64,000 nt of DNA from Rhodoflexus caldus (lineage in GTDB: Bacteria > Bacteroidota > Bacteroidia > Cytophagales > Thermoflexibacteraceae), in NCBI RefSeq assembly GCF_021206925.1, contig NZ_JAJPRF010000003.1, positions 62,001-126,000 of the forward strand, given 5' to 3'. The notes under the pieces were generated by a model. That model was not told the DNA's origin. It did not search any database and saw only the letters and a list, made by a program, of their open reading frames with translations. Shown in pieces: positions 12,164-63,063 of this stretch; position 1 is the first letter of the stretch, and every line of letters begins with the position of its first letter. Made by a program: the position numbers and the translations under genes.

Positions 12164-12215
12164 GGAACGTGTTAATCTGCTCACCTGCTTAAAGTTAGCT
12201 GCTTACTTAAACAAT

Positions 12216-55864: not shown

Positions 55865-55944
55865 AGCCTGATGTGAAGTTGAAACGTTTTTTCATTTCTG
55901 TACTTCACAACAATACGAACTTTTCATTTGGGAGACAAATCTCG

Positions 55945-55996: not shown

Positions 55997-57034
55997 CTAT
56001 ACGAACAAGGGCTGTGCTTCCTGCGCCACAATATCGCGCCAAAGTTGCTGTTCAGGGATGCCGGGCTTGCGCTTACCAAACATGAGGATGATATTTTGCC
56101 CTGCTGCGTCGTATAGCTCAACACCCGTAACGATGCCGTCTTCGGTGGGTTTGAGCACTACCCATGCCGAAGCAACGTGTTGGTCTTTCAGGTGTAGGTT
56201 AAATTCGGGGTCAAGTACGTTGAACCAACCGTTCATCGGCACAATATTGCGCGCAAGCCCCGTATGGATTTGAATGCAACCGCGATTGCCCGCAAAAATC
56301 ATAATCGGGCATTGCTGTTCGGATACGGCAGCGAATACCCGCTTGACCTGTTCTATGGAAATTTCCCACGCATAGCCTTCGGGGGCTAAACGCAGCCCTT
56401 GTGTGCGGCTGACTTTGTACTTTTTCAATATGCCGAAAAATTCGTGCGTGTCTTTCATGTTGAGCCATGCCTTGCGGAATCCGACGATGTCAATCGTTTC
56501 ATCGGGTTGCGGGGCTTCGGGTGCAGGGTACGGAATTATTTCCATAGGTGCGTAGGGGGCTGCGGCGCGGTATTTTTCTGCCAATGCTTCAAATGCTTCG
56601 CGGTCGCTTTTTTCGGTCAGGTAAATTTTATGCACTGCCTCGCCGCTTTTGTCAAAAAATTGTAGACTCAGGCGTTCGTTTTCATTCACGGCAAAGCCGA
56701 ATGCCCAGTGCATCATGAACAGGCGCAGGTCAATATCATCGCCCAAGACCAACCCTACGTGATTATCAAAAGAAACGTTTTCATAAACGCCTTTACGCTC
56801 ATGCACAACATGGTCGTTGCGGGTAAGTGCCATCACATAGCCTAATGAAGGTACATCTTTGAGTATTTCGCGGAAGTCGCCTTGCAGGCGCACGGCAGTT
56901 TCCCCAATGCCGCAGGCGACCAATTCGGCTTCACTTACGCCTAATTGTTTTGCCGCTTCGCGAATGCGGACTTTCGGGTGAGCAGCCTTGAAGGCTTCGT
57001 AGCGTTCTTTGAGGTTTTTCAGAATGGTTTGCAT
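55997..57034 (-). CDS. hmuS: Heme-degrading/heme-handling protein HmuS (HemS family)
   Basis: 345 residues from the ATG at 57034 (MQTILKNLKERYEAFKAAHP); a longer frame from 57100 lacks support. Two tandem HemS/ChuX repeats are seen (about 30-165 and 205-335: VRLQGDFREILKDVPSLGYVMALTRND and the later SRTQGLRLAPEGYAWEI). HemS-type proteins bind heme in the cytoplasm and in many species degrade it to release iron. It is the last gene of the leftward hmuTUVS operon, 43 bases after hmuV. Confidence 0.88.
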   Translation of the reverse strand: MQTILKNLKERYEAFKAAHPKVRIREAAKQLGVSEAELVACGIGETAVRLQGDFREILKDVPSLGYVMALTRNDHVVHERKGVYENVSFDNHVGLVLGDDIDLRLFMMHWAFGFAVNENERLSLQFFDKSGEAVHKIYLTEKSDREAFEALAEKYRAAAPYAPMEIIPYPAPEAPQPDETIDIVGFRKAWLNMKDTHEFFGILKKYKVSRTQGLRLAPEGYAWEISIEQVKRVFAAVSEQQCPIMIFAGNRGCIQIHTGLARNIVPMNGWFNVLDPEFNLHLKDQHVASAWVVLKPTEDGIVTGVELYDAAGQNIILMFGKRKPGIPEQQLWRDIVAQEAQPLFV

Positions 57035-57077
57035 AACGTTTGAGGGGGTTAAATGATAAATGATGATGAAATCTTTT

Positions 57078-57929
57078 TTATGGTACATCATGCAGGACAT
57101 ACCCTGTCCCTACATATGACTGCCTGTGTACATGCACAATGAACGGGCAGCCTGATTCGGGATGCTGCATCAAATTGACTTCTACCCCGAATACGCGGTG
57201 AATATTTTCACAAGTCATGACCTCTTGCGGGCTGCCTGCCGCTATGACCTTACCTTTTTTGAGCATAATCAGATGGTCGGCGTACTGTGCGGCAAGGTTC
57301 AAATCGTGCAGTACTGCCACCACGCAATAGCCTTTTTGTGCCAATCGGCGGGCAAGGTCTAAGGTGTGGTATTGATGCAGCAGGTCTAAACCCGTAATCG
57401 GTTCGTCCAAAAAAAGATATTTTGGCGTATCAACAGGCGACTGCGGGTTGTGCAATTCTCTGCTGTCGGTAATTTGCGCCAGCACACGCGCCAATTGCAC
57501 GCGCTGTTGTTCACCGCCGGAAAGCGTTTGATAGGTCCTGCCTTTCAAATGCTGCGTACCTGTCTGTTGCATGGCAAAATCAACAATTGCACGGTCGGTC
57601 GGGGTCGGATGCCCGTTGAAATGCGGATAGCGTCCCATTAGTACCAATTCTTCGCATACAAATGGCAGTGAAAGTTGCTGTTGTTGCGAAAGCACGGCAC
57701 GCATTTGTGCCATTTGCATTGCCGAAAAACTGTTCAACGGCTTGCCGTGAAAATACACGCTGCCCTGCTGCAAGGGATAGTCGCGGCAAAGCACTTTGAG
57801 CAAGGTAGATTTACCTGCACCGTTAGCACCGACAATGGCAGTGAAAGCACCTGCGCGGGCTTCCAGCGAAACATCGGACAGCAACTGTTTTGCCCCGATT
57901 CGGTAGCTGAGATGTGAAACCTGAATCAT
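57078..57929 (-). CDS. hmuV: Heme ABC transporter ATP-binding protein HmuV
   Basis: 283 residues. Walker A GANGAGKST at 34-42, LSGGEQQRVQLARVL signature, Walker B FLDEPITGLD. It powers heme import through HmuU. The frame also opens at 57965, but the ATG at 57929 overlaps the hmuU stop as ATGA, and MIQVSHLSYR is the usual start; it is preferred. It lies between hmuU and hmuS. Confidence 0.92.
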   Translation of the reverse strand: MIQVSHLSYRIGAKQLLSDVSLEARAGAFTAIVGANGAGKSTLLKVLCRDYPLQQGSVYFHGKPLNSFSAMQMAQMRAVLSQQQQLSLPFVCEELVLMGRYPHFNGHPTPTDRAIVDFAMQQTGTQHLKGRTYQTLSGGEQQRVQLARVLAQITDSRELHNPQSPVDTPKYLFLDEPITGLDLLHQYHTLDLARRLAQKGYCVVAVLHDLNLAAQYADHLIMLKKGKVIAAGSPQEVMTCENIHRVFGVEVNLMQHPESGCPFIVHVHRQSYVGTGYVLHDVP

Positions 57930-58963
57930 ACGGTCATGCGGCGTTTTTCTTTTATCAGAATCCAAAGGAAAAAGGGCGTACCAAGCATCGCAGTGATGAT
58001 ACCGATGGGCAATTCGGAAGGCGCAACCGCCGTGCGCGAAATCAAATCGGACGTGGTCAGGACGGCAGCACCCAGTAGCGCCGAAGCGGGCAGAATCAGT
58101 TTATGGTCTGCCCCTGCAAACAGGCGCAGCAAGTGCGGAATCACCAGCCCGATAAAGCCGATAGTTCCGGCAACTGCAACCGATGCACCCACTGCCATGG
58201 TTGCCCACAAAATGACTTGGCGTTTGAGCGATTTGACATCAATGCCCAAATACGCCGCTTCGCTTTCGCCTAATGCCAGCGCATTGAGGGCTTTTGAAAG
58301 GCGCGGCAGTGCAATCATCGGCAGCAGCACGAACGGCGCGACGGCGGCTACGCTTTCCCAACTTGCCCCGCCCAAACTACCCAAACCCCAGAATACGATG
58401 CTGCGCAATTGTGCATCGGTGGCGGTGTAGGTCAGTAGCCCCGTAAGTGCCCCCGCAAGTGCGTTAATGGCAATACCTGCCAGCAACATAGTAGCGATAA
58501 CGGCTTTGCCGCCCGTTTTGGAAAGTCGGTAAACGGTCAGCGTGGTTATCACCGCACCGCCAAAGGCAAAGACCGACAGCGCATAGAATCCCAATAGTCC
58601 CGAGAGAGCGGTAAACACCTTGATTTCCAGTACAATCATTACAACGGCAAAAAGCGAAGCACCGGCAGAAACGCCAATCAGTCCCGGGTCTGCCAGCGGG
58701 TTGCGAAACAAGCCTTGCATGGAAGCCCCTGCCACTGCCAATGAAGCCCCTACCAATACGCCCAATAACACACGCGGCAGGCGAATAATCCAAAAAACGG
58801 CATCTTGTTGCGGCTCAAACCCGACAGCTTCGCCGCCAAAGCGATGGCTGACGATTGCCAACAGTTCGCGCCAGCCAATAGAAACCGCCCCGATGCACAC
58901 CGAGCAAACGACTACTGCCAACAATAAGGCAATCAGTACCGAAATAATAAGCGTTTGTTTCAT
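57926..58963 (-). CDS. hmuU: Heme ABC transporter permease HmuU
   Basis: 345 residues of the FecCD family with about ten membrane helices. Blocks LPRVLLGVLVGASLAVAGASMQ and IGFIGLVIPHLLRLFAGADH are typical for BtuC-like permeases that import siderophores, heme or cobalamin. Context with HmuT, HmuV, HmuS, HmuR and HmuY identifies the cargo as heme. The end overlaps hmuV by four bases and the start is two bases past hmuT, so the genes are translationally coupled. Confidence 0.92.
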   Translation of the reverse strand: MKQTLIISVLIALLLAVVVCSVCIGAVSIGWRELLAIVSHRFGGEAVGFEPQQDAVFWIIRLPRVLLGVLVGASLAVAGASMQGLFRNPLADPGLIGVSAGASLFAVVMIVLEIKVFTALSGLLGFYALSVFAFGGAVITTLTVYRLSKTGGKAVIATMLLAGIAINALAGALTGLLTYTATDAQLRSIVFWGLGSLGGASWESVAAVAPFVLLPMIALPRLSKALNALALGESEAAYLGIDVKSLKRQVILWATMAVGASVAVAGTIGFIGLVIPHLLRLFAGADHKLILPASALLGAAVLTTSDLISRTAVAPSELPIGIITAMLGTPFFLWILIKEKRRMTV

Positions 58964-58965
58964 AG

Positions 58966-59790
58966 TCAGCGGATTTTATCGGCTAATTCCTGCAAGGCTT
59001 TGCCTAATCGCGGACTAAATCCGGTGAGCAGTTGCCCGTCCATTTCTACAATCTTGCGGTTTTTGCCTGCATTGGTTTGGGCAACACCCTGCACCTGCAA
59101 CAACCCGTTGATACCACCCAAACTTTGCAAGCCGCTGCTAAACAGCAAAATCACGTCGGGGTTTGCCTGCAACAGCGATTCGGCTGTCAACGGTTTGAAG
59201 TCGTTGAAGTCGTTGGCGGCATTTTCACCGCCTGCCATTTCTATTGCCTGCGCTACACTTGTATTCTTACCCGCAACCATCAGCGAGCCTGCCCCGCGTG
59301 CATAAATGAAGAGTACTTTTTTCCGTGTAGCGGGTTTTTTGAGCGCGGCTACTTCTTTGCCTACCCGTTCGGCAAGGGCATTGCCTTGCGCGGCAAGATT
59401 AAAATCTGCCGCCACTTGTCGGATGAGTTTTTGCGTGCCTTGCAGCGAATATTCCTGTTCGTAAAGCAGTGTTTTAATGCCTGCGGCTTTCAGTTGTTGT
59501 TCCAATGCGGGGGACAATTGGCTGCGGATGCCGACAAAAACGGTCGGGCGCAATGCCAAAATACCTTCTGCCGATATATTACGGTTATGCCCGATTTTGG
59601 GGACTTTTTGCAGACTTTCGGGATAAGTGCTTGTTACATCCACGCCCGCAATATTTTTTTCCAACCCGAGTTCACACAGTATTTCACTAATGGTGCCGCT
59701 TGCCGAGACAATCCGTTCGCCGTTGGTCTGTGCCTGTATTAGGTTAATCAGGCAGCTTATCAGTAAGATTTGAAGAATGAATTGACGCAT
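58966..59790 (-). CDS. hmuT: Heme ABC transporter substrate-binding protein HmuT
   Basis: 274 residues with a signal peptide (ILLISCLINLIQAQ). A class III periplasmic binding protein: GTISEILCELGLEKNIAGVDVTST and the central long helix ending AAQGNALAERVGKEVAALKK, followed by a second lobe with LLQANPDVILLFSSG. It carries heme from the receptor to HmuU. It is the first gene of the leftward operon and faces the heme operator and divergent promoter at 59823-59902. Confidence 0.9.
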   Translation of the reverse strand: MRQFILQILLISCLINLIQAQTNGERIVSASGTISEILCELGLEKNIAGVDVTSTYPESLQKVPKIGHNRNISAEGILALRPTVFVGIRSQLSPALEQQLKAAGIKTLLYEQEYSLQGTQKLIRQVAADFNLAAQGNALAERVGKEVAALKKPATRKKVLFIYARGAGSLMVAGKNTSVAQAIEMAGGENAANDFNDFKPLTAESLLQANPDVILLFSSGLQSLGGINGLLQVQGVAQTNAGKNRKIVEMDGQLLTGFSPRLGKALQELADKIR

Positions 59791-59822: not shown

Positions 59823-59854
59823 CAAATATTGAGCTTATTTAGACTAAATCCAAA
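59823..59854 (-). promoter_or_regulatory. Leftward promoter of hmuTUVS
   Basis: On the minus strand TTTG (59854-59851) is followed after 20 bases by AATATTTG (59830-59823), one mismatch from TAnnTTTG. Its position is mirror-symmetric to the hmuR promoter around the operator. Confidence 0.6.
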
Positions 59855-59887
59855 TAATTATCGCCAATTATTTGGAATCATTCTAAA
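59838..59887. promoter_or_regulatory. 50-base dyad operator between hmuT and hmuR
   Basis: 20 of 25 base pairs are symmetric around 59862.5. The inner part is an 11-bp perfect inverted repeat (59849-59859 with 59866-59876, six-base loop) and the outer part TTTAGA / TCTAAA (59838-59843 with 59882-59887). Both -33 elements lie inside it, so a bound repressor should block both promoters. An iron- or heme-responsive Fur or DtxR-type regulator is probable; the identity is inferred. Confidence 0.72.
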
Positions 59888-59902
59888 CAAGCCATAGGTT
59901 TG
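59871..59902 (+). promoter_or_regulatory. Rightward promoter of hmuR
   Basis: TTTG at 59871-59874 and TAGGTTTG at 59895-59902 (spacer 20) match the Bacteroidota -33/-7 consensus exactly. The ATG is 22 bases further. Confidence 0.68.
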
Positions 59903-59924: not shown

Positions 59925-62009
59925 ATGAAAAGAATATGTACCATAAAATTTATCAGTGCGCTGATAATCAGTCAGATGCAGGCTCATGCGCAAAGTGACA
60001 GCCTGAAAATGCGCGAGTTGGATGAATTGGTCATCACCGCTACCCGTACCGAAAAGATGGTTTCGGCTCTGCCCATGCCCGTTACCGTTGTTTCACAGAA
60101 GCAGATACAACAGATGGGCAGTTTGCGGCTGAACGAGGTTTTGCAGGAACAAACCGGACTTGCCATTGTCAATAATCACGGGCAGGGTTTGCAGGTACAG
60201 GGGTTCAATCCCGAATACACGCTGATTTTGATTGACGGCGAGCCGCTCATCGGGCGCACAGCCGGAACATTGGAACTTTCGCGAGTGGCAGTAGGCAATA
60301 TCAAGCAAATTGAAATCGTCAAAGGTCCGAGTTCAAGCCTCTATGGTTCGGAAGCACTGGCAGGCGTGGTAAACATCATTACGGAAAACCCCACAGCCAA
60401 TCGCGCTGCTTTTTCCGCACGCTACGGCAGCAATCGCACGTTGGATTTAACCTCTAATCTGCAATGGAAGAAAGAGCGTACCTCTGCTTCGTTGTTCCTC
60501 AATCGGTACAGCACGGCGGGTTATGACCTTACGCCCCAAACTTTCGGGCAAACCGTTGAACCGTTTCACAACTACACGTTGCAAGCCAAAGCCGAACATC
60601 GCTTTTCCGATGCGTGGCGGCTCAGCTTTTCGGGGCGTTACTTTGCCGAACGGCAAACCGATAACTTCAATGTCGGCTCTGCACAAACGCCCGACTTGGT
60701 CAGCGGCGAAGGCAGCATTAAAGACCTGAATCTCAACCCCGTTCTGCATTTTAAGCCTTCGGGCAATTTCAGCGGGCGCATCAGCTTGTATCATTCCCGA
60801 TACCGCACCGATGCGGCAAGCCGCCACCTGAGCGACGGCAAACCGTTTGACGAAAGTTTCTTCAACCAAACTTTTCTGCGTCCCGAAACCCAGCTCATTT
60901 GGCTGTTTTCACCCAAGCACAATACTACTTTCGGCGCGGGCATGGTGCAGGAAAGCGTTGAGGCAACCCGTTACACGCAACGGCAGCAGTTCCACACCAT
61001 TTATGCCTTTGCCCAACACGAGTGGCTGCCTACCGAAAAATGGCACATCATCGCGGGCGGACGTTTTGACAACCATAGTGTGTATGGTTCGCAATTCAGC
61101 CCCAAACTTTCGGCGCAGTATCAACTGACCCCGAAAATTGCCCTTCGGGCATCGGGCGGTGTGGGCTTCAAAGCACCCGATTTTCGGCAATTGTACCTGA
61201 ATTTTGTCAATACTGCCGCGGGCTATTCAGTGTTTGGAACAGAGGAAGTCAGCCGCCTGATTCAAGAATTGCAGGCACAGGGGCAAATCGGTGAAGTGTT
61301 TTTCAATCCCGAAACGGCAGGCAGTTTGCGAGCCGAGCGTTCACTTTCGTGGAACTTCGGCGGCAAATGGAATGCTTCCGAACAAACGTTGATTAATGTC
61401 AATTTCTTCCGCAACGACATTCGCGATTTGATTGAATCGCAGGTGTTTGCGCGACGCACCAACGGACAGAATATTTTCAGCTACCGCAACCTGAGCCGCG
61501 TATTTACGCAAGGCATGGAACTGGACGCTTCGCAACAAATTTCCGATTACCTCTGCATTTCGGCAGGCTATCAGTTGCTGTTCACGGGCGACAAATCGGT
61601 AATTGAACGGATTGACAAGGGCGAAATTTTCCGCCGCGACCCCGTTACGCTCATCACAAGCCGCCTGAGCCGCAGCGACTACGGCGGACTGTTCGGACGC
61701 AGCCGCCACATGGCAAACGCCAAAATATTCTACGAAAACAAAGCCAAAGGTTGGACTGCCAACTTGCGTGCCGTCTGGCGCGGACGCTACGGACTTGGCG
61801 ACCGCAACGGAAATCTGGTATTAGACGATGCTTCAGAATACGTAAACGGCTTTGTAACCCTGAACGTCGCAGCAAGCAAAACTTTCTTCGGCGAAAAACT
61901 CAGGCTGCAAGTCGGGGCAGACAATCTGCTCAATTTTACCGACCCGACGGCGATTCCCAACATGCCCGGGCGACTATTGTGGACAAGTCTTCATTTCCAA
62001 ATCCGATAA
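59925..62009 (+). CDS. hmuR: TonB-dependent heme receptor HmuR-like
   Basis: 694 residues. A signal peptide, then a TonB box-like LDELVITATRTEKM, a plug domain (about 40-150, ALPMPVTVVSQKQIQQMGSL ... IEIVKGPSSSLYGSEALAGVVNIITE) and a 22-strand barrel with the region GFKAPDFRQLYLNF; the C-terminus ends in LHFQIR. It brings heme across the outer membrane with TonB energy. The cargo is inferred from neighbours HmuY and HmuTUVS. It begins the rightward operon and shares the operator with hmuT. Confidence 0.92.
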   Translation: MKRICTIKFISALIISQMQAHAQSDSLKMRELDELVITATRTEKMVSALPMPVTVVSQKQIQQMGSLRLNEVLQEQTGLAIVNNHGQGLQVQGFNPEYTLILIDGEPLIGRTAGTLELSRVAVGNIKQIEIVKGPSSSLYGSEALAGVVNIITENPTANRAAFSARYGSNRTLDLTSNLQWKKERTSASLFLNRYSTAGYDLTPQTFGQTVEPFHNYTLQAKAEHRFSDAWRLSFSGRYFAERQTDNFNVGSAQTPDLVSGEGSIKDLNLNPVLHFKPSGNFSGRISLYHSRYRTDAASRHLSDGKPFDESFFNQTFLRPETQLIWLFSPKHNTTFGAGMVQESVEATRYTQRQQFHTIYAFAQHEWLPTEKWHIIAGGRFDNHSVYGSQFSPKLSAQYQLTPKIALRASGGVGFKAPDFRQLYLNFVNTAAGYSVFGTEEVSRLIQELQAQGQIGEVFFNPETAGSLRAERSLSWNFGGKWNASEQTLINVNFFRNDIRDLIESQVFARRTNGQNIFSYRNLSRVFTQGMELDASQQISDYLCISAGYQLLFTGDKSVIERIDKGEIFRRDPVTLITSRLSRSDYGGLFGRSRHMANAKIFYENKAKGWTANLRAVWRGRYGLGDRNGNLVLDDASEYVNGFVTLNVAASKTFFGEKLRLQVGADNLLNFTDPTAIPNMPGRLLWTSLHFQIR

Positions 62010-62033: not shown

Positions 62034-62363
62034 ATGTGCACCGGTTACATTCTGTTTCATCACGAGTCGGGCTTTGCCGCCTATTGCCAAAAGTGCGGCT
62101 GCGTGCGGTTTGCTTTCGGAACAACCGCCGTTTATTTCACCGAGTCTCAGTTCAGGTTGTTTTGCGAGTACATCTTGGATTTTTACCCGCACTACGACCC
62201 TGCGAGCCTGATGAAAAACGTGTGGATTCCTTTGGGCGAGCAAAATACTTACCTGATTCTCAGCGGGAAAGAATTACATCGGCTCAAAAAATCGCTGCGC
62301 ATCGCATTAAACAGGCTGCATATCCGCCGACTTGTTGAAACGGCATGTGAACAACTCAACTGA
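62034..62363 (+). CDS. Small Cys-containing protein in the heme operon
   Basis: 109 residues, no signal peptide. The Cys pattern CxxCGC (AAYCQKCGCVRFAFG) near 18-23 could bind metal or heme. It lies 24 bases after hmuR and 70 bases before hmuY, so it is part of the operon. I think it belongs to a DUF6686-like family, but cannot confirm. A regulatory, heme-trafficking or redox role is inference. Confidence 0.68.
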   Translation: MCTGYILFHHESGFAAYCQKCGCVRFAFGTTAVYFTESQFRLFCEYILDFYPHYDPASLMKNVWIPLGEQNTYLILSGKELHRLKKSLRIALNRLHIRRLVETACEQLN

Positions 62364-62433: not shown

Positions 62434-63063
62434 ATGAAAAACTTCACAGTTTTAATTGCCTGCGCAGTACTGTTGCTGCCTGCGCTCACATCTTGTAAAG
62501 ATGACAACGTAAACCCCGTACAACCCGTTGTTACGCAAACCGTGCGCGACTTGCCCGCCGACCCCGTTACTATTGACCCTGCTACGGGCAGACCTCTGGG
62601 CGGCACGAATCGCTTCACGCTGTACAGTCTGCGCGAAAACCGCATCATTGCCAATTCGGACAGTGCCACCAACAAATGGGACATCGGTTTCAGAGGCACA
62701 ACCCTGATTGTCAACGGCGGGGCTATTCGCAGCGGACAAGGCGGCGCGTACATCTTCACGGGACTTTTTGACGAACTGAAAGAAATTCCTGCAACGGCAG
62801 AGTTCCGCACCGACCAAAGCCCGAGCAATCTTGCCATCCCGAACGCTTCGGGGCAGGGCTGGTACAACTACAATTCGCAAACACACCTGATTACGCCTAT
62901 TCCCGGACGGGTGATTGTGCTGCGCACGGGCGATGGAAAATTTGCCAAAATGGAAATTTTGAGCTATTACAAAGGCGCACCTGCCGTGCCAAGCTCAACT
63001 TCCGAGTCGCGTTATTACACCTTCCGATTCAGTTTTCAACCCGACGGCAGCCGCAAGTTTTAA
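62434..63063 (+). CDS. hmuY: Heme-binding lipoprotein HmuY
   Basis: 209 residues, chosen from the ATG at 62434 where the signal peptide MKNFTVLIACAVLLLPALTSC (lipobox Cys21) begins; a longer frame from 62332 overlaps the previous gene. KWDIGFRGTTLIVNGG, KMEILSYYKG and RYYTFRFSFQ are hallmark segments of HmuY, which binds heme at the cell surface and hands it to HmuR in Porphyromonas. Which residues contact heme here (Met, His or other) was not resolved. It is the third gene of the operon. Confidence 0.88.
   Translation: MKNFTVLIACAVLLLPALTSCKDDNVNPVQPVVTQTVRDLPADPVTIDPATGRPLGGTNRFTLYSLRENRIIANSDSATNKWDIGFRGTTLIVNGGAIRSGQGGAYIFTGLFDELKEIPATAEFRTDQSPSNLAIPNASGQGWYNYNSQTHLITPIPGRVIVLRTGDGKFAKMEILSYYKGAPAVPSSTSESRYYTFRFSFQPDGSRKF

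Follow-up and report, generated by a model that had tools for sequence, protein, structure and literature searches.

We consider it likely, at a probability of about 0.8, that two Fur dimers, one per promoter, occupy two predicted Fur operators in the divergent heme-uptake region between hmuT and hmuR. This reading builds on what was observed of the sequence, the promoters, the family of boxes, its conservation, the genes that carry it and its co-occurrence with Fur. The features of the region are listed below; positions are those of the window, i.e. the whole 64-kb stretch of DNA analysed.

55997..57100, - strand: hmuS/hutX-like heme-handling protein (HemS and ChuX_HutX domains)
57078..57965, - strand: hmuV, heme ABC transporter ATPase (NF010068 above cut-off)
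57926..58963, - strand: hmuU, FecCD-type permease
58966..59790, - strand: hmuT, ABC transporter binding protein (Peripla_BP_2; best NCBIfam model heme-binding IsdE, below cut-off)
59823..59854, - strand: hmuT promoter (-33 TTTG at 59851-59854, 20-bp spacer, -7 AATATTTG at 59823-59830)
59838..59854, no strand: left Fur box (predicted), TTTAGACTAAATCCAAA, 3 mismatches to TTTAGAATNATTCTAAA, within the hmuT promoter
59855..59870, no strand: centre between the boxes, 16 bp, AT-rich (15 bp in both congeners)
59871..59887, no strand: right Fur box (predicted), TTTGGAATCATTCTAAA, 1 mismatch to TTTAGAATNATTCTAAA, within the hmuR promoter
59871..59902, + strand: hmuR promoter (-33 TTTG at 59871-59874, 20-bp spacer, -7 TAGGTTTG at 59895-59902)
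59925..62009, + strand: hmuR, TonB-dependent receptor (heme receptor by context)
62034..62363, + strand: DUF6686 protein, between hmuR and the HmuY-family gene
62434..63063, + strand: HmuY-family protein (start 62332 in the ORF list; ATG at 62434 inferred)

Boxes and promoters between hmuT and hmuR

The gap between hmuT and hmuR is 134 bp long and AT-rich (GC 0.34). The original prediction placed a dyad here, and its extent is confirmed: between 59838 and 59887, 20 out of 25 pairs are complementary, which is the top score among all 50-bp positions of the window; none of 5000 sequences simulated for the 134-bp gap with a first-order Markov model reached it. Two boxes account for the arms described earlier: the outer TTTAGA arms form their outer half-sites, the inner TCCAAA/TTTGGA their inner ones; the box consensus is TTTAGA-N5-TCTAAA (17 bp), with 6/8 self-pairs in the left box and 7/8 in the right one. 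The pairs of the dyad are shared between the box-to-box mirror (14/17) and the inner spacer (6/8). Because each box is itself palindromic and the pair is mirrored, a long dyad results without further constraint, and most of the dyad follows from this pairing. Four other 50-bp stretches of the window have 18-19 out of 25 dyad pairs (at 12207, 40755, 47284 and 55943); the one at 55943, between hmuS and a sodium symporter gene, may be a terminator.

Sigma-A promoters of Bacteroidota have a -33 TTTG about 19-21 bp from the -7 element, for which PMC9723704 states the consensus TAnnTTTG. The pattern TTTG-N19..21-NANNTTTG matches at 59823-59854 (- strand) and at 59871-59902 (+ strand), both with a spacing of 20, so that the proposed mirror-image divergent promoters are supported in both directions. 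The rightward promoter is complete and also fits the full TANNTTTG consensus (found seven times in the window, against a mean of 1.51 in shuffled sequence). The leftward -7, AATATTTG, is without the first T of TAnnTTTG and is weak if judged alone (the relaxed pattern has 17 matches vs 8.9 expected); both congeners keep this position, as AATCTTTG. In each box the inner TTTG doubles as the -33 of the promoter facing outward, with the -7 of that promoter 20 bp away, and each 17-bp box begins at the -33 of its own promoter and fills most of the -33/-7 spacer. The boxes thus overlap both promoters, a position compatible with a repressor, as had been suggested.

The genes form two operons, hmuT-U-V-S leftward of the dyad and hmuR, DUF6686 and the HmuY-family gene rightward. 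HmuT, HmuU and HmuR match transporter families, all below the NCBIfam cut-offs (for HmuR, 174.9 bits for a vitamin B12 receptor model vs 140.6 bits for the heme model), and HmuV alone exceeds an NCBIfam heme cut-off; HemS/ChuX and HmuY Pfam domains are present in the two operons. The heme gene names and the heme substrate, reasonable as they are, come mostly from context. Among named records, HmuT is closest to proteins from Bernardetiaceae (92% identical) and a Cytophagales MAG (89%).

Recurrence of the box in relatives and across genomes

Relatives with the same gene order were expected to keep the dyad, and two congeners and one other genus do so. The two congeners (loci L020 and L021) retain both boxes and both promoters, flanked by hmuT and hmuR orthologues, although the flanks have diverged. 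The congeners have the right box without any change, the left box varies in them (TTTAGACTAATTACAAA and TTTAGACTAATTCCAAA), L020 has an altered inner half-site, and the centre is one base shorter in both, so the 16 bp seen here are no fixed spacer. G008, from another genus of the same family, has a box pair at a spacing of 31, with hmuS-T-U-V on one side and hmuR-HmuY on the other. In these four genomes 18-20 of 24-25 dyad pairs are complementary, and the box spacings of 33, 32 and 31 bp correspond to 3.14, 3.05 and 2.95 helical turns. At three Olivibacter loci the region separating hmuT from a divergent gene holds two boxes, at a distance of 128 bp. Because the spacing varies among 33, 32 and 31 bp, and is 128 bp in Olivibacter, we prefer two boxes on one face to a rigid 50-bp operator. 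Congener G001 lacks a close hmuT, its best match being 26% identical. Among 49 hmu loci of the genome collection, eight have a box at two or fewer mismatches (control 0) and 41 do not; many of the 49 have a different gene order upstream of hmuT.

The genome itself (G000) has 11 sites matching TTTAGAMTNAKTCTAAA at two or fewer mismatches (four for the reversed control), and the four congeners together have 40 (19 reversed). Nine of the 11 precede genes for heme, iron uptake, cytochromes or Fe-S proteins: hmuR, hmuT, a multi-heme cytochrome c, an ABC binding protein (SBP_bac_6/8-type, presumably carrying ferric iron), a TonB receptor, sufB, sufC, nfu and aconitase; the other two are inside ORFs. 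The dyad had been suggested as something to look for before other iron genes: single boxes were indeed found there, but near the seven other targets no second site was found within 3 mismatches. At the aconitase site a 49-aa ORF intervenes, beginning 37 bp after the box. This ORF (L018:1555-1701, + strand; contig C3 near 326964) encodes seven Cys, is conserved in congener G003 (L130) and has no Pfam or NCBIfam match.

Out of the 40 congener sites, 26 belong to the nine target groups and 14 do not; among the latter, one (L113) precedes another TonB-receptor-type gene, others are near genes for a transposase and an M1 peptidase, a 2-oxoacid dehydrogenase E2, DUF5916, a Cache/HAMP sensor, CHU_C and an inositol phosphatase, and the rest are inside ORFs. 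For the reversed pattern 16 out of 19 sites were fetched, of which eight are intergenic, and none of the eight genes scanned beside seven of these is an iron gene (they encode sugar transporters, of one gene type at three loci, as well as PAS/GAF/Cache sensors, enoyl-CoA hydratase and ThuA). At three or fewer mismatches the genome shows no excess (23 sites vs 22 reversed), and many genomes of the order likewise have none over the control at a loose threshold (e.g. 7 vs 25 in G006). As such loose genome-wide counts are uninformative, we give weight to position, gene identity and conservation.

The position of the box relative to the promoter is clear at hmuR and hmuT and is a reading of alignments at six more targets; at the cytochrome c gene the promoter is ambiguous. 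At hmuR, hmuT, sufC and the aconitase region the start of the box is close to -33 (the latter two with TTTA in place of TTTG); at sufB the box overlaps the -33 region from the upstream side, and at the genes for the binding protein, the TonB receptor and Nfu it comes after the -7; the ORF lists place the binding-protein and nfu boxes inside early-start ORFs, for which a later ATG is the probable start. All these positions are compatible with a repressor.

One site was taken from each of 30 out of 59 genomes of the order, and 27 of the 30 loci are intergenic. Among 18 loci with at least one downstream neighbour scanned, ten have a gene for a cytochrome c, a TonB receptor, a heme oxygenase, PepSY_TM or a glutamyl-tRNA reductase, and eight do not. 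TonB receptors are common in Bacteroidota, so their presence near boxes is weak evidence.

A sufB match was found in 54 of the 59 genomes, of which 50 were surveyed (G028, G053, G054 and G060 had fragmentary or remote matches and were left out). The sufB box (three or fewer mismatches) is found in 36/44 genomes with a strong Fur match (PF01475 at E 1e-22 or better) and in 1/6 without (Fisher p 0.003, which overstates independence, as three of the six Fur-less genomes are from one family and G043 is 84% complete); the reversed control gives 2/44. Outside the order, the box precedes sufB in one of 28 genomes (28 examined of 45 with a sufB match). Of the eight Fur-bearing genomes that have no sufB box, three are small genomes of family f7.

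Candidate regulator

Two Fur-family proteins of the genome are above the Pfam cut-off. The longer one (165 aa; G000:C2:262043-262399) is nearest to Fur models, yet under their equivalog cut-offs. The original prediction named a Fur/DtxR regulator of iron type: the iron type stands and Fur remains, while no DtxR-family protein of the genome is above the family cut-off. The two sub-threshold DtxR HTH hits are small proteins (L003 and L004, on contigs C9 and C4), which read as putative ArsR-type proteins. Operators of other families were set aside for want of an encoded protein: a DtxR/IdeR/MntR operator for the reason just given; an IscR/RirA operator, as the genome has no Rrf2 match (the same search was positive in 13/14 controls); and an Irr/ICE regulon, as the long Fur scores 37.1 and 36.4 bits on Irr models with cut-offs of 170 and 150.

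The comparison of genomes points to the long Fur as the candidate. In G014 and G041 the only Fur-family match is of the long type and the sufB box is retained, whereas G043 (84% complete) has a short-type match only and no sufB box; the candidate is drawn from this contrast, despite G024, G036, G051 and G065, each with a single Fur match and no sufB box. Orthology of PF01475 matches to the long Fur was checked for the aligned rows only.

These rows are L001:1426-1923 and its orthologues among L183-L234; the count of 31 does not include E. coli Fur, the short paralogue or L209, which is another paralogue, and no sequence came from L201. All 31 rows keep the E. coli residues H33, E81, H88, D89, H90 and H125, all have Gln at H87, and at E108 they have Gln (19), His (10), Gly (1) or Tyr (1); these are metal-ligand positions of E. 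coli Fur. At E. coli Arg57, within the helix that reads the DNA, all 31 rows have Asn, and we take the numbering of Magnetospirillum Fur to be equal at this residue. In Magnetospirillum, Arg57 of Fur contacts a conserved guanine (PMC4506495). The replacements of H87, E108 and Arg57, along with the control of heme import and iron-using genes, suggest a further reading that we regard as rather unlikely: the long Fur of this order may be a re-tooled sensor of heme or another iron form, not of free Fe2+ alone, acting via an Irr-like box and so a functional parallel to Irr, independently reached.

Known operators and other explanations

One of the closest known systems is that of Riemerella anatipestifer, of the same phylum, with a ATTTAGAATTATTCTAAAT box, which the boxes here resemble, and hmuR as a target. 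In PMC5609570, the predicted Fur box is given as 5'-ATTTAGAATTATTCTAAAT-3' (the abstract, unlike the results, gives an E. coli-type box), and purified Fur bound four promoters by EMSA, including that of hmuR; one of the four has a poor box in Table 5. According to Table 4 of that paper, hmuR and hmuY go up when iron is restricted (WT-Fe/WT+Fe values of 7.89 and 6.71) and, with iron, in the fur mutant (fur mutant/WT values of 2.64 and 2.56). Both genes still respond to iron in that mutant (8.44 and 7.69), which shows that Fur is one switch there but not the sole one. sufB and NifU have positive ratios in the iron-response table and are outside the direct Fur list (PMC5609570). The boxes of hmuR and RAYM_06185 in Table 5 share a start coordinate and are complementary in sequence, i.e. 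one shared box is listed, whereas there are two here, one per promoter, before hmuT and hmuR.

The classical Fur box of Enterobacteria and Bacillus has the 7-1-7 form TGATAATnATTATCA. It has the same inverted-repeat geometry and AAT-N-ATT core as the box here, but its outer bases are TGAT/ATCA instead of TTAG/CTAA, and the Arg57 of E. coli Fur is the Asn of the long Fur in 31/31 rows. The ICE box of alpha-proteobacterial Irr has nearly the same letters as the box here, and heme and Fe-S genes are among the targets here. The Irr models are not matched, however, and, as Irr represses under iron limitation (PMC3413700, PMC7540006), heme uptake would need the opposite sign. The 19-bp form of the E. 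coli Fur box is given in PMC4506495. PgFur/Har of Porphyromonas gingivalis, a Bacteroidota relative of Fur, binds the hmu promoter (PMC6613475); PMC4222909 describes it as being without the HxH metal motif, which the Fur here keeps (H88, H90). We recognised no description of a Cytophagales Fur box among the papers listed by the literature searches, most of which were judged from their listings.

A match to the box, an encoded Fur, a regulon of iron, heme and Fe-S genes and overlap with promoters, as expected of a Bacteroidota Fur operator, were all found. For binding, repression, the iron signal and cooperativity we infer the following mechanism. When iron is sufficient, metal-bound long Fur would bind each box as a dimer, and Fur on both boxes would keep RNA polymerase from either promoter; iron scarcity would free the two operons, hmuTUVS and hmuR-DUF6686-hmuY, at the same time. 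Boxes 31-33 bp apart (about three helical turns) would place the dimers on roughly the same face, as judged from this spacing, and the two dimers may assist each other. Most likely the same iron signal can switch both operons off. Several observations are against this reading: the 3 mismatches of the left box and the imperfect -7 beside it; G020 (a single contig, 98% complete), in which boxes precede sufB (3 mismatches) and a cytochrome c gene while no Fur was found even at E 10; the eight Fur genomes without the sufB box; the lack of an excess of sites at three or fewer mismatches in the genome itself; the single sufB box among 28 genomes outside the order; and the iron response that persists in the Riemerella fur mutant.

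In the original prediction one regulator, bound at one centre of the whole 50-bp dyad, closes both promoters at once. In favour of it are the dyad of 18-20 out of 24-25 pairs in four genomes and the AT-rich centre, which adds six of eight symmetric pairs here; but a dyad of this kind is automatic with two self-palindromic boxes, the centre differs by 1 bp in the congeners, the inner half-site is altered in L020, the seven other targets of the genome have no nearby second site within 3 mismatches, and the Olivibacter boxes are 128 bp apart. The sequence instead parses as two boxes, one per promoter, at a variable spacing, and we give the single centre very little chance. Long inverted repeats between genes are often terminators, and the palindrome might act merely at the RNA level or as a structure (a terminator or hairpin). 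The genes diverge from it, so no transcript end is expected there, both promoters are directed outward, and the same boxes recur singly at other promoters; this explanation we practically dismiss.

The reader of the boxes could also be a different regulator of the iron or redox kind (Irr-like, PerR-like, Rrf2 or DtxR), or Fur together with a second iron-responsive regulator. The likeness to the ICE box, the targets suf, nfu and cytochrome c (in relatives also hemA and heme oxygenase), a recognition helix in the long Fur that is not E. coli-like, the boxes of G020 and the Riemerella iron response that outlasts the loss of fur all fit this explanation. It is nevertheless improbable in our judgement: Rrf2 is absent, DtxR is below the cut-off, the long Fur reaches 37 and 36 bits on Irr models that demand 170 and 150, the box is kept with a lone long-type Fur (G014, G041) and missing with the short type only (G043), and binding to a promoter that carries this motif is reported for a Bacteroidota Fur (PMC5609570).

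The two Fur operators proposed here are of a Fur-box type already known; new are another order and the doubled layout, which is tidy but largely expected. The locus shows that doubling a palindromic box is enough to produce a long palindrome that looks like an operator. For Cytophagales it supplies a concrete Fur operator consensus that can be tested; a box described from a single duck pathogen thereby reaches a further order of the phylum, and one motif links heme import with the control of sufB, sufC, nfu and cytochrome c.
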